Source: a virus. From it: a DNA stretch of 22,760 bases. Below the pieces are notes generated by a model. The model was not told the origin of the DNA and did not search any database. It saw only the letters and a program-made list of their open reading frames with translations. Made by a program: the position numbers and the translations under genes. The DNA is taken from IMG/VR virus record IMGVR_UViG_3300036828_000024, positions 1 through 22,760 of that record; one strand, 5' to 3'. Position 1 is the stretch's first letter, and each line of letters opens with the position of its first letter. Below are positions 6,148 through 14,872 of this stretch, in pieces.

Positions 6148-6759
6148 CTATGTCCACTTACCGACATCGAATCCAGAAATTACAAGTGTTTCTAAATCAA
6201 ATCCAAAGAATGGCCCCGTTACTGGCGCTGTCGGAGGATTGTACAGAACACCTTCCGGACGGGGAATAATGAAACCATTCGCAATTAAGTCTTGCTCAAT
6301 AGACGTAAACGAACCCGCGATTGTAATGTTGGCCGTCATGTTCTGGTTATCCTGAACCCCAAGCACACCACCGGGAAACAGATGTCGCCAGATTTGATAA
6401 AGGGAAAGAATAGTCCCGTCCCAATGATCCTTAGCAATCGTCGCATACAAAAGAATCCTGTAGGTAGCATCATCCAATACTGGCGATACTCCTCCGGATG
6501 GTTGAAACGGAACTGTTCTGCTGGCACCAACCAATTCACCAATCGCATCTAATTGTTTTCCTACTGCAACATCGATATCGTATGCAGCATTGAACTGTTG
6601 AATGCATGTTGTAAGATCATCAATCGGTGTCATCAGTGCTGTTTGCCATGCAATGAGATTCGGAGATAGCTTGTATTGCGAAGTGAACAGATTCACATAA
6701 TAAGCAAGCAATTGCTTCATCTGTCGAACCTGAACCGTCATTGGAGTTACCGTTGCCAT
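6148..6759 (-). CDS. DUF2612 baseplate or fibre-connector protein (gpI-like position)
   Basis: DUF2612 proteins are found at the edge of the baseplate, where they may link wedge and fibre. The family signature is visible: GKQLDAIGELVGASR, then DDATYRILLYATIAKDHWDGT and LYQIWRHLFP. The start chosen is the ATG at 6759, 1 base after the gpJ-like stop; this gives 203 residues. An in-frame TTG at 6768 would add three residues and overlap that gene. Neither has a strong ribosome binding site, so coupling to upstream translation is likely. The C-terminal 40 residues (PRPEGVLYNPPTAPVTGPF onward) are Pro/Gly-rich and may contact the fibre. The place after gp25-like and gpJ-like genes matches gpI of P2-like phages. 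Confidence 0.85.
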   Translation of the reverse strand: MATVTPMTVQVRQMKQLLAYYVNLFTSQYKLSPNLIAWQTALMTPIDDLTTCIQQFNAAYDIDVAVGKQLDAIGELVGASRTVPFQPSGGVSPVLDDATYRILLYATIAKDHWDGTILSLYQIWRHLFPGGVLGVQDNQNMTANITIAGSFTSIEQDLIANGFIIPRPEGVLYNPPTAPVTGPFFGFDLETLVISGFDVGKWT

Positions 6760-6760
6760 C

Positions 6761-7945
6761 TCATACAACCGTTAGCGTAATATTCGATATAATTCCCTGT
6801 GCAACCTGATTAAAAGCGATTGGGATATCTGCCGTTCCTAACGATCCCCCGGCAATACCTGCTGTAAGCGCAGTAATGGAATATAGCGGTCTGGTGATAT
6901 CCGGGGTTACTGACATAGCCGCGCTATACAAAGCTGAAATAGTAACAATCTCTCCAATTTGAAGACTATTCAAATAGTCATTAATGGCCAATTGAATCGC
7001 GTTTGTTGTATCTGTTGTATATCCAGCGAATGAATGAATCGTGCACTGCACAGCAATATCAATGTACGTAGGTCTAAAAAACGATATCGCCATGGTTTGT
7101 TGCGTGATCGGATCAGTCACATTGACGGTAGTAGTGCCGTTGGTAAAACATCCCGGAGTCTTATTTAAATAAATAACATTGGCAATGTCATTTGTGTTTC
7201 CACCTTCGACAACCATGCTGATTGAATGCGGGGGATTGCCGTAGGAGTCCACTGCGCCGGTCGGATTCTCCACACCTATGGTTCCATACCTTGTGACTCC
7301 GGGAACCTGCGCTATAGCCGCCAAAGTGCCATCGACAAGGGATTGTGAAGGCAATACAACAGACAGGGATTGCCGCATCCGAAAAGCCGAATCGGTTTCG
7401 ATTCCGGTTCCCGGTGTTGCAGCACTCGCATTGGTTGCGCCAGTCCAGCCGGAAACCGGATTGTACATGATGTTGATCGTGTTTGGTGGGGCCGTGATCT
7501 GTCCAAGCGCCTGACAGGTTGCGGTGACAATTGCATTCCCAAATGCGGAAAGCAAAAAACTGCTGGGAAGATTCCAAAGATTACCATTCGCATCCTGCAC
7601 AACACGATTAGTTAAATGCAAATGAGCAGTGCCAGTAACCGTAATTTGCGCTGTTGATGGTGTCGATGAAGCTCTCGCAATTCCATTTAATTTATAAAGC
7701 GAATCCTGTTGCGCTCCAATTGCCGTCATTGGAAACATGCCATTGAACACTGCTTGCGCAAGCATCATGCAATCGTTAATCATCAGCGCAAAATTTGCTA
7801 TGCTCTGCGTGTCCGTTGTTGAAATATTACTGATTACGGATTGGCCATAAATCGATGCGTACTGTTGCACAAGAAAATCATTAATATCGCTGTAAGACGG
7901 TACATGCAATCCAGCCGCATCTATGTAAGGCGCAAAATATGACAT
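6761..7945 (-). CDS. Baseplate wedge protein, gpJ-like
   Basis: This 394-residue protein is the gpJ/gp6-type wedge subunit that builds the periphery of the contractile-tail baseplate. Characteristic features are the N-terminus with YSDINDFLVQQYASIYG, the segment AQAVFNGMFPMTAIGAQQD, the core (TGIETDSAFRMRQS, then GTLAAIAQVPGVTRYGTIGVEN), HSISMVVEGG, and the late segment AIQLAINDYLNSLQIGEIV. The length fits the family. The ribosome binding site AGGTGAGAGC precedes the ATG, and the gene starts 4 bases after the gp25-like gene, the classic gp25-gpJ-gpI order. I see nothing abnormal in it. Confidence 0.93.
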   Translation of the reverse strand: MSYFAPYIDAAGLHVPSYSDINDFLVQQYASIYGQSVISNISTTDTQSIANFALMINDCMMLAQAVFNGMFPMTAIGAQQDSLYKLNGIARASSTPSTAQITVTGTAHLHLTNRVVQDANGNLWNLPSSFLLSAFGNAIVTATCQALGQITAPPNTINIMYNPVSGWTGATNASAATPGTGIETDSAFRMRQSLSVVLPSQSLVDGTLAAIAQVPGVTRYGTIGVENPTGAVDSYGNPPHSISMVVEGGNTNDIANVIYLNKTPGCFTNGTTTVNVTDPITQQTMAISFFRPTYIDIAVQCTIHSFAGYTTDTTNAIQLAINDYLNSLQIGEIVTISALYSAAMSVTPDITRPLYSITALTAGIAGGSLGTADIPIAFNQVAQGIISNITLTVV

Positions 7946-11279: not shown

Positions 11280-12566
11280 TCAGTACGCAGACCTCAATTC
11301 CGCGAGATTGTACGATGTCTGTTGTTTCCGTTCCGCTTTGATTCGTTCATTGATCTGTGTTGCAATCTGCTCCGGTGTGGCATGGGGCTGCATGATATTG
11401 ATGGTTCCGATATTGACCCCGCCGCCGCTATACATCCCCGCTCCCCGCTGCATTCCCCGCGTGTAATGTGAAAGAGTATCTTCGAAATATCCGCCACGCT
11501 TTAACGCTCCCGCAAACTGCTCCGCACTTTGCGCTCCCATTGCTCCCGGATATTTGCGGCGAATTAAATTTGTGTAATAGTTCCCGAACTCCCCCAGTGA
11601 ACTGAATGCGCGATATTCCGTACTCCCCGGATAACGAATTCCGGCAAGATTGTTCAGCGATCTGGCACCACGATTGGTGAAGTTGCCAGTTTCGTGTTCC
11701 CATTGACCATAGATCAAAGCAGGATTGATACCAAGACTCCCACCCACCTGTGCAGCTAATGCCCTGATGTTGCCGGTATCTTGTATTGGAACCGGACTGG
11801 TTACTTCAGCGCCAGTACTCACCGTTTTGGTCGTTCCACCTGTGACGAATGTAGTAAGTCGCGCCAGCATGTTGAACACAGGTTCAGACACTTTCGCAAT
11901 CCCGCCAATGATGATGAATATATCTTTGAGAAGCTTCAGCAACGGAACAACTAAATTAGCAATCATGGTTGACCATTCAGGAATGTGCTGAACAATGTAA
12001 GCATTCAAATCCTGAAGGTTGTTTAAGAATTTCTCTCCGCCCAGTCCCTCAACAATCTTGCTTACCACATTCATCAGGAAATATTGCATCTCCACACTGA
12101 ACTTCGAAAACTCAAAGCGGATATCGCGTATCCGTCGCATGTTTTCTTCGAAGTTAGGCCCGAGTTGTCCAGTCAAGGTTTTTTGCAATGTTTGCAGTTC
12201 AACAAATCGCCTGTGCAACTCAGGATCGAACGCAATCTGTTCAAGCGTTGCCCCTAATGCTTCTGTAGCGATCTTCAATGAACGTGCATGTTGCACATCC
12301 ATGAACATCGTCTGACCCCATAACCTGAAATCCTGATCACGCATTGCAACCTTGTCGGCAGTGGCAATAGCAGCAATACCAACACCGACAAGTGCCCCGG
12401 CAACGGCAACCCCAGTCGAAGCAAGCGCACCCATTTCCGGGATAATCGTTGTCTCGATCAGGCGTGTTGCATCCTTCAGCGCATTGTTAAATTGAGTCAG
12501 TTGTGTTTGGTTGACCTGAAAGCCCAAACTAACGAGGTAGCTTTTGAGTGCCTTGATATCAGCCAT
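11280..12566 (-). CDS. Tape measure protein with glucosaminidase-like domain
   Basis: The tape measure fills the tail tube, sets tail length and is released into the host at infection. This one has 428 residues, short for the class; at roughly 0.15 nm per residue it implies a tail near 60 nm (inference). Residues 15-45 are helical, and 48-70 form an Ala/Gly/Val hydrophobic stretch. Residues 205-225 are hydrophobic (LVVPLLKLLKDIFIIIGGI). Residues about 266-372 match glucosaminidase-type peptidoglycan hydrolases: LIYGQWEHETGNF with candidate catalytic Glu292, ARSLNNLAGI, then FSSLGEFGNYYTNLI. This domain probably opens the cell wall locally during DNA entry. The gene overlaps the frameshifted chaperone frame by 8 bases. 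The place between chaperone and Dit-like gene is diagnostic. Confidence 0.87.
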   Translation of the reverse strand: MADIKALKSYLVSLGFQVNQTQLTQFNNALKDATRLIETTIIPEMGALASTGVAVAGALVGVGIAAIATADKVAMRDQDFRLWGQTMFMDVQHARSLKIATEALGATLEQIAFDPELHRRFVELQTLQKTLTGQLGPNFEENMRRIRDIRFEFSKFSVEMQYFLMNVVSKIVEGLGGEKFLNNLQDLNAYIVQHIPEWSTMIANLVVPLLKLLKDIFIIIGGIAKVSEPVFNMLARLTTFVTGGTTKTVSTGAEVTSPVPIQDTGNIRALAAQVGGSLGINPALIYGQWEHETGNFTNRGARSLNNLAGIRYPGSTEYRAFSSLGEFGNYYTNLIRRKYPGAMGAQSAEQFAGALKRGGYFEDTLSHYTRGMQRGAGMYSGGGVNIGTINIMQPHATPEQIATQINERIKAERKQQTSYNLAELRSAY

Positions 12567-12789
12567 GGTGCTTTCTCAACCATTCATCTACCACAGTCTT
12601 ATTGGCGTTTTGAACATCCAATATCTCGTGTGCAACCAACAAATCGTGAAAGCTGTAAGTGCCGTTCGTAGCTTCCTTTTGTTTCCACATCCCTTCCACA
12701 ACCGGACGATAGAGGAATGCATCAATATTCGGAAAATCAATTAACTCGATGCTTGCGCCGTTAGTATGTTGTTCAATCCTCCGGTTAAG
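12559..12789 (-). CDS. Tail assembly chaperone, -1 frameshift extension (GT-like)
   Basis: This 76-codon stretch has no usable start codon with a ribosome binding site, yet it is clearly coding. It is read when ribosomes slip -1 at CCCCTTTTTTC (12789-12799) in the preceding gene, giving a 218-residue fusion (142 + 76 residues). The -1 frame is closed upstream by a stop at 12805-12807, so slippage must occur in the short window that contains the slippery run. The product contains IELIDFPNIDAFLYRPVVEG, then MWKQKEATNGTYSFHDLL and AHEILDVQNANKTVVDEWL, a charged helical domain of the sort seen in second halves of tail chaperones. It fills the otherwise empty space before the tape measure and ends 8 bases inside it. 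By analogy with lambda G/GT, the extension recruits tube subunits to the tape measure. Confidence 0.88.
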   Translation of the reverse strand, partial: LNRRIEQHTNGASIELIDFPNIDAFLYRPVVEGMWKQKEATNGTYSFHDLLVAHEILDVQNANKTVVDEWLRKHHG

Positions 12790-13214
12790 AAAAAAGGGGA
12801 AAGATTAAAAAACAGTGAGTGTGATGTCAGCACCACTACGGTTGAAATGTCCGTCTTCAATTCCGGAATCGCAAACGTTCCGTTAGCCATCAGTACCGAT
12901 AACACAACTTCTTCTTCTCCCACCGCTGTATACTGTCCTACAACTCTCAATGCTTCCTGTTGAACCTGTTCGAATAGATTGCGGTCCAGTGTCATCAGCA
13001 TTCCTTGAATCAATGCTTGTGCAGCTTGTTCCTTCTGTGTTCTGTCCTGTTCAGTCTGTGGTTCCGGTGTGCTATCTTCCAGTGAATTTTGCGCCATTAT
13101 CTTGCGCAAAGAATCAATTAATTTAAACAACAACCATGATCCAACCGCTGCATTCATTCGCCGCAACTGATATCGGTTGTTATTGACAATGACATCCTTG
13201 GTTTCACCTTCCAT
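12741..13214 (-). CDS. Tail assembly chaperone, G-like short form
   Basis: The 157-residue protein lies between tube and tape measure genes, the standard place of tail assembly chaperones, which wrap the tape measure while the tube polymerises and are absent from the virion. It is mostly helical after a beta start (DVIVNNNRYQLRRMNAAVG), has a Gln/Glu/Thr-rich charged middle (residues 48-65), and ends in a hydrophobic SLFFNLSPFFLTGG segment. The slippery run falls in codons 139-142, so the last 15 residues are unique to the non-shifted form. GAGGGAGCA lies just before the ATG. Sequence similarity to named families is weak; the call rests on position and the frameshift. Confidence 0.83.
   Translation of the reverse strand: MEGETKDVIVNNNRYQLRRMNAAVGSWLLFKLIDSLRKIMAQNSLEDSTPEPQTEQDRTQKEQAAQALIQGMLMTLDRNLFEQVQQEALRVVGQYTAVGEEEVVLSVLMANGTFAIPELKTDISTVVVLTSHSLFFNLSPFFLTGGLNNILTAQASS
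12789..12799 (-). promoter_or_regulatory. -1 ribosomal frameshift slippery site
   Basis: The mRNA reads CCCCUUUUUUC. In the chaperone frame (CC CCU UUU UUC) it contains two overlapping X-XXY-YYZ heptamers, C CCU UUU and U UUU UUC. Both allow P- and A-site tRNAs to re-pair after a -1 shift. I see no strong downstream stem-loop. A GGAGGA run lies about 6 bases downstream, in codons for Gly-Gly. Confidence 0.85.
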
Positions 13215-13226
13215 TGCTCCCTCACA

Positions 13227-13724
13227 TTAGAGACTGTTCAAATTCGCGCAAAGCAGCGTCCATGTAATCATGGTTGGATTTGCCGCATAAGCTTTATCCG
13301 GAATCTTGGTGGGAAACACTCCTAACGCTTCGTGTGATGTTCCATCCAAGACATTGCGCAAAAGCATCGAAGTACTCGCCCACTGCGAGATGTCGCCCTG
13401 ATTGCAAAGCGTATCGTGCAGGTTAATCCAGAACAACAGGTACTTATGCAGGATGCTGGTTTGCTGACATTCAATCGTGATGCGTCCAGCTTTACCAGCA
13501 ACGTAAGCTGGCAGCACAGTACCATCGGCTGATGTCTCCAGCACACCGTGTTCTGTGATGTATTCAACAGTGATCTTTCCGGCACCAATGTAACCGCTGA
13601 ATTTGAATGCACCTGCAAGCGGAGAAGCAATTGCACCTGATAAATCCTTGAAGCTGTAGGTTGTCGAAACACCCTTGAAGATGTTTCCGAAAGCACTCAA
13701 TGCATTCACAATTGAAGTGGACAT
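13227..13724 (-). CDS. Tail tube protein (DUF3277 family)
   Basis: This 165-residue protein is the inner tube subunit of the contractile tail. It carries the DUF3277 layout: TYSFKDLSGAIASPLAGAFKF near the N-terminus, then ITVEYITEHGVLETSADGTVL, a KAGRITIECQQTS strand, an ILHKYLLFW helix, and a final strand PTMITWTLLCANLNSL. Length is typical. It follows the sheath gene by 11 bases, with AGGAG before the ATG. Sheath-tube-chaperone order is standard. Confidence 0.9.
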   Translation of the reverse strand: MSTSIVNALSAFGNIFKGVSTTYSFKDLSGAIASPLAGAFKFSGYIGAGKITVEYITEHGVLETSADGTVLPAYVAGKAGRITIECQQTSILHKYLLFWINLHDTLCNQGDISQWASTSMLLRNVLDGTSHEALGVFPTKIPDKAYAANPTMITWTLLCANLNSL

Positions 13725-13735
13725 AATTTACTCTC

Positions 13736-14872
13736 CTACTGCTGAACGTAAACAGCAATCAGAACTGATTGAACAGCTTCACTCAGAATCACGGCACAGT
13801 AAATTGGCGCGGCCTGTCGATTCGCGGGTTTTGCTCCCAAGGATGCGTAAGTTGGTGATTGATTTAAATATCCCGGAATCGACATGCCCGCTTGTAATTT
13901 AAGTATAGTTTGCCCCTGCCACACACCAGGTGATAGAAAGCCACGATTAACTGACTTCGAACAGGACGTATTTGCAGATTGAATTAAAACTGATTGTCCC
14001 TCATCAGTTTGAGGTATCGCCGGATATAGAAACAATGTGTTAGTCATGTCGTACTGCAAATCAGATACGAGCATGTCGATGCCCAAAATCTGATCAAAAT
14101 ACTGACCACTTCCAGTCACACCCGGAGAAAGCGAATTGTAAGTGTTCGCATAACTGGAATAGACATTCCCGTTGTTTCCGTTGATCGTATTGAATTGACC
14201 AGCAGTAACAGGTTCAACAATCATCCCAATAACATTCTTGAAGGGAAGAATAAAATAACTTCCCGCCAGTCCGGTATTGCGTCCCATCACTAGGCCCATT
14301 AATCCCGCCGCAAAATAGTTGTTGTTTAATGCGGTTCCACCCTGCGTAGTGATATACGTCCCAATGTAGCGATTCAACGTTGCTCGTGTCAGAATTGAGA
14401 AAGGATCGTTAATGCCCGTTAAGCAATCGGGAGAACTGGTTTGCCAGAAATATTGCGCCACAGGAGATGCAGTCTGAACCCATTGTGACACCGCAACTAT
14501 ATCATCATCAATTGCACCTTGAATCGTGAACAGATACCAGTCCGGAGATGCAACACGGCAAGCCTGTGCCGCTTGTAATGGTGTTTCCGTTGGTCCCTGC
14601 ACTCCAATCCACAGATAGAACGGAGTGGGTATCTGTGAGAAATATGCTTGCGCAGCAAGATATTCAGCAGACGTAGAAGAAAAACCGTCCGTAAGCATTT
14701 GTTGCAAAGCCACAAGCCCACCTGAATACAAGCGAACTCGTGAATTCGGACCACTAAGAGGAAGGACAGTACTTTTTCCGATAATCAATGCCTGATTGAA
14801 CTGTGGAGGTTGTACAGCTTGCGGTGAAACCTGAACAGTTACATCTACGATAAAATCTAATGGCAGAGTCAT
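13736..14872 (-). CDS. Tail sheath protein (DUF3383 family)
   Basis: The protein has 378 residues and belongs to DUF3383, the contractile sheath subunit of small myoviruses. Visible features: the N-terminal arm ending in FNQALIIGKS, RVRLYSGGLVALQQMLTDGF with EYLAAQAYFSQIPTPF, a domain around PDWYLFTIQGAIDDDIVAVSQ, and a C-terminal arm that would exchange strands with neighbouring subunits. The presence of a sheath plus gp25/gpJ proteins identifies the phage as a myovirus type. GGTGGTGAAAC lies upstream of the ATG, and the gene begins 10 bases after the terminator stop. Confidence 0.92.
   Translation of the reverse strand: MTLPLDFIVDVTVQVSPQAVQPPQFNQALIIGKSTVLPLSGPNSRVRLYSGGLVALQQMLTDGFSSTSAEYLAAQAYFSQIPTPFYLWIGVQGPTETPLQAAQACRVASPDWYLFTIQGAIDDDIVAVSQWVQTASPVAQYFWQTSSPDCLTGINDPFSILTRATLNRYIGTYITTQGGTALNNNYFAAGLMGLVMGRNTGLAGSYFILPFKNVIGMIVEPVTAGQFNTINGNNGNVYSSYANTYNSLSPGVTGSGQYFDQILGIDMLVSDLQYDMTNTLFLYPAIPQTDEGQSVLIQSANTSCSKSVNRGFLSPGVWQGQTILKLQAGMSIPGYLNQSPTYASLGAKPANRQAAPIYCAVILSEAVQSVLIAVYVQQ

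Follow-up and report, generated by a model that had tools for sequence, protein, structure and literature searches.

In the 22,760-nt window (the whole stretch of viral DNA that was analysed), a tail assembly chaperone gene and the tape-measure-like gene behind it are separated by 174 nt (12740-12567) with no obvious gene, raising the question of whether this gap encodes a second part of the chaperone that is reached by a change of reading frame. The structural genes in question all lie on the minus strand, in the order sheath, tube, chaperone and tape measure:

13736-14872, minus strand: tail sheath (phrog_205, E 1.5e-61)
13227-13724, minus strand: tail tube protein of the KPP10_Orf10 family (PF11681, E 4e-28), the upstream neighbour of the chaperone
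12741-13214, minus strand: tail assembly chaperone, zero-frame short form (TAC-N/gpG-like), 157 aa
11280-12566, minus strand: tape-measure-like protein with a C-terminal glucosaminidase domain (PF01832, 41 bits; weak match to the tape measure family phrog_12506)

The chaperone matched Phage_TAC_15 (PF21822) with 30.6 bits, above the curated cut-off of 22, and phrog_1688 with an E-value of 4e-9. The best PDB match of its AlphaFold model (pLDDT 90) was 5IR0 (Z 8.2 over 97 residues, 3.2 Å), a match that the tool itself flags as middling, and Foldseek gave a weak E-value of 0.48. 5IR0, a protein of the satellite PLE1, was identified in 2026 as its tail assembly chaperone and resembles that of HK97 (PMC12987554). 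The protein of the window is tentatively predicted to adopt a tail-assembly-chaperone fold. Moreover, its gene lies between those of the tail tube and the tape measure, as in G/GT-type loci.

Two neighbours differed from those of related loci. The sheath lacks an insertion of approximately 80 residues that is found in L002 (1443-2834) and L015 (4001-5377). Additionally, where the tape-measure-like protein of the window carries the glucosaminidase domain, that of L002 (3980-5479) has an apparent lytic transglycosylase domain; it looks as if the murein hydrolase has been swapped on a similar N-terminus. A 468-aa ORF lies on the plus strand (3-1409), opposite the minus-strand structural genes; it is open at the edge of the record and had no Pfam match.

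The junction between the two genes contains the following features:

12805-12807, minus strand: TAA bounding the -1 frame upstream
12792-12798, minus strand: slippery heptamer C CCT TTT in the chaperone phase
12789-12795, minus strand: slippery heptamer T TTT TTC in the chaperone phase, overlapping the former
12743-12741, minus strand: chaperone stop codon TAA
12562-12804, minus strand: -1 frame of 81 open codons, the putative C-terminal extension of a long form (gpT-like; DUF6889/phrog_4364)
12566-12564, minus strand: tape-measure ATG
12559-12561, minus strand: TGA ending the -1 frame, inside the beginning of the tape-measure gene

A sequence-only reading had proposed that the seemingly empty 174 bases encode a domain in the -1 frame. 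The frame is indeed open from 12804 to 12562, its upstream bound at the TAA was confirmed, and it overlaps the tape-measure gene by 8 nt. Openness alone proves little, since 2.5% of dinucleotide shuffles were also open over 174 nt in a given frame and 7.6% in some frame. The coding capacity instead follows from the homology of the product, which matched phrog_4364 (E 1.5e-13) and Pfam DUF6889 (PF21829; 24.4-24.6 bits, just above the curated cut-off of 23.9). Among the homologues, 46 of 47 -1 extensions matched DUF6889 at E ≤ 0.01 (best E 3.5e-14), and all 42 zero-frame parts matched Phage_TAC_15. Across the window and five relatives, the region behind the chaperone stop showed a pN of 0.15-0.31 against a pS of 0.57-0.90 (pN/pS 0.23-0.50), and changes at the three codon positions of the -1 frame amounted to 0.27, 0.23 and 0.56, an enrichment at the third position. 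Judged by these substitution patterns, purifying selection acts on the -1 region.

From the TTTTTTC site onwards, the extension comprises 78 aa, and the predicted fusion of approximately 218 aa would consist of 140 shared residues and the DUF6889 domain. The model of the 78-aa domain (pLDDT 80) features a long C-terminal helix. No PDB relatives of the domain were found by sequence and none that were convincing by the fold of this model, which does not imply that the fold is novel.

How ribosomes would reach this domain is suggested by the junction, which reads TTT AAT CTT TCC CCT TTT TTC TTA ACC GGA GGA in the chaperone frame. The slip site, CCCCTTTTTTC, contains six consecutive T and lies close to the end of the chaperone gene. 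With TCC CCT TTT TTC as the chaperone-frame reading, both CCCTTTT and TTTTTTC are phased as X XXY YYZ, and the overlap of the two frames in the window contains no further site of this type; the earlier claim of two overlapping in-phase heptamers as the sole slip site therefore held. We consider it very probable, from comparative sequence evidence, that this contractile-tailed phage uses a programmed -1 ribosomal frameshift of the lambda G/GT type in its tail assembly chaperone gene. The majority of ribosomes would produce the 157-aa short chaperone, and a minority would slip back by one base on TCC CCT TTT TTC, enter the -1 frame and produce the long form. If lambda gpG/gpGT is a guide, the part common to both forms would coat the tape measure protein, and the rare C-terminal DUF6889 domain would bring in tail tube subunits. 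The slipping of ribosomes, its frequency and the binding partner of the extension are all inferred, and tube recruitment by the extension is extrapolated from lambda.

We then collected relatives from isolated phages and from contigs of viruses and of bacterial genomes. Because tblastn with the chaperone gave no matches in isolated phages, the -1 domain was taken as the search probe. The resulting 96 loci, including the window's own sequence (L024), fell into 65 clusters at 85% nucleotide identity, 64 of which were scorable. In 60 of the 64 clusters, the domain lay in the -1 frame relative to the chaperone ORF, and the overlap contained an in-phase TTTTTTN, so both the run and the frame relation proposed for the window are widely kept. 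In those genes, 60 of the 2304 overlap codons carried in-phase TTTTTTN, against none of the 7668 codons elsewhere. Two exceptions lack TTTTTTN: AbTJ (L005) has TTTGGGA/GGGAAAT/AAATTTT, and Faunus (L011) has GAG TTT TTC, that is, the weaker GTTTTTC. In the other exceptions, L006 and L096, no intact chaperone ORF stood in the right place, a -1 relation could not be assigned, and the loci are apparently broken or rearranged. As an independent check, a search with the DUF6889 model covered two overlapping draws, each of approximately 300 genomes, from the phyla to which two prophage hosts belong; it added one prophage not previously seen (L115), which carries GCC CCT TTT TTC TCG in the same frame relation.

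Within the clade of the window, the run CCCCTTTTTT was kept in L025, L027, L028, L029, L030, L031 and L044, and it was exact in L025, L027, L028, L029 and L030 despite a pS of 0.57-0.90; elsewhere, synonymous sites were near saturation in the closest relatives. Among 19 conserved degenerate chaperone positions compared across the window and seven relatives, the slip-site CCT and TTT were the sole invariant codons.

These comparisons bear on three other explanations. Assembly errors can yield isolated frame changes, so the two frames might formerly have been one, separated by a sequencing error or gene decay. This explanation is refuted by the relatives, and we give it practically no weight: the arrangement recurs in 60 of 64 clusters, isolated phages and prophages included, and relatives show nearly saturated synonymous divergence together with purifying selection.

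Alternatively, the DUF6889 domain might be a separate small gene whose translation begins around the chaperone stop, either at a non-standard start codon or by reinitiation. Some Chaseviridae records do annotate it as a small hypothetical protein of its own, phage GJ1 has a Shine-Dalgarno-like GGAGG ahead of the annotated ATC start, and a GGAGGA lies near the junction in the window. However, the -1 frame of the window has no ATG, GTG or TTG ahead of the domain core, and 46 of 64 clusters have none from the upstream stop to 30 nt inside the matched domain, in line with the earlier suggestion that the domain lacks a start of its own. The starts annotated in databases disagree (GJ1 ATC, PP101 GTG, Myduc TTG), and some of them would truncate the conserved domain, whereas the upstream TTTTTTC is common to these Chaseviridae. 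Moreover, GGAGGA is not kept in most relatives, and a separate gene would have no need for invariant in-phase slip codons. Separate translation is therefore very unlikely. Neither of the two findings that the sequence-only reading had named as fatal to it, a slippery run lost among relatives or a second domain encoded separately with its own start, was borne out by the relatives.

Slightly less probable still is slippage of RNA polymerase, rather than of the ribosome, on the C4T6 run. The run is homopolymeric and conserved, as this explanation would have it, but six Ts are a short run for transcriptional slippage. Additionally, conservation tracks the codon phase and the tandem-slip pattern, including the partners GGGTTTT and CCCTTTT, and AbTJ has no T6 yet carries other in-phase heptamers. 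Ribosomal frameshifting accordingly remains the preferred reading.

Frameshifting of -1 type is classical in tail chaperone genes, as in lambda gpG/gpGT and its counterparts in long-tailed dsDNA phages (PMC5009743), and an efficiency of 6-7% was measured in an HK97-like cluster (PMC3711429). A paper of 2025 made the same case for Vandenendeviridae and Andersonviridae, where the motif is GTTTTT (PMC12846349). As in lambda, the chaperone gene of the window lies upstream of the tape measure gene, and a -1 slip near its 3' end would give a short and a long form. Unlike lambda, the window has CCCCTTTTTTC instead of the lambda heptamer, and its families are TAC_15/DUF6889 in a contractile-tailed virion.

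Vandenendeviridae and Andersonviridae, represented by Pseudomonas phage Adele (PMC12846349), share with the window the contractile tail, the order sheath, tube, chaperone and tape measure, a -1 frame open past the chaperone stop and a downstream ORF misannotated as a separate gene. They differ in having several tube genes and an invariant GTTTTT motif in place of C4T6, and by eye the -1 extension of PAK_P1 lacks the DUF6889 core motif. Closer counterparts were found in Chaseviridae (phiEcoM-GJ1, 4HA13, PM1, PP101, Myduc and ZPAH14), which have a homologous -1 domain behind an in-phase TTTTTTC and the same gene order. Compared with the window, their overlap is longer (84-93 nt after the slip site), their zero-frame tail is different and they have a single heptamer.

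A stimulatory element was also sought downstream of the slip site, where folding prediction gave one candidate:

12730-12783, minus strand: possible, unproven stimulatory hairpin (CGGAGGAUUGA / UUGAUUUUCCG), starting 5 nt after the slip site

The sequence-only reading had seen no strong downstream stem. This was roughly right, although a hairpin of moderate to weak stability, with pairing that relatives do not keep, is predicted in the window (z -1.3 to -2.2). In the window as well as in L025, L027 and L028, its three closest relatives, a hairpin is predicted a few nt past the slip site (z -1.7 to -2.9 over 60 nt), with 3' arms at different, non-homologous places. The hairpin was absent from L029-L031, the consensus fold reached just -0.9 kcal/mol and no covariation support was found. 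Among the relatives, no stimulatory element conserved in structure or position was found. The GGAGGA run, which the same reading thought might matter, was rejected as a stimulator: it is kept in L025 only and lies 3' of the slip site. Shine-Dalgarno-like stimulators known for -1 frameshifting lie 5' of the slip site, so it is on the wrong side.

Given that this mechanism is classical in tail chaperones and was argued in 2025 for two families of contractile-tailed phages, the window very probably represents a further instance of it. The modest new point is that, as sequence comparison indicates, frameshifting adds DUF6889/phrog_4364 to these chaperones as their C-terminal domain; no mention of DUF6889 was found in the literature searched. 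This suggests a likely function for the widespread DUF6889, phrog_4364 and probably phrog_3976 as families of unknown function, in Chaseviridae, prophages of Clostridia and Bacilli, and unclassified myophages. Many records omit the -1 domain or annotate it as a truncated separate gene or small hypothetical gene. The loci also provide a deep comparative case of G/GT-type frameshifting beyond lambda-like siphophages. A bolder version, which we regard as rather doubtful, is that DUF6889/phrog_4364 forms a second widespread gpT-like, tube-recruiting domain made only by frameshifting, and that the tandem CCCTTTT and TTTTTTC site in the clade of the window sets an unusual ratio of long to short form for a tape measure that is short, with hairpins that would have evolved more than once a few nt past the site perhaps playing a part.

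Several records showed further peculiarities. In L015, an HNH endonuclease-like ORF (6516-7076) separates the -1 domain from the tape measure gene and looks like a homing endonuclease insertion. In the Clostridiales MAG RUG10998, six or more contigs (L096, L100, L102, L103, L104 and L108) carry the chaperone module as copies or fragments, some of them rearranged. In addition, the -1 domain of 'Staphylococcus phage Pel53' (PP952070.1) is much like that of Escherichia coli Chaseviridae phages, and the host label of this record may be wrong.
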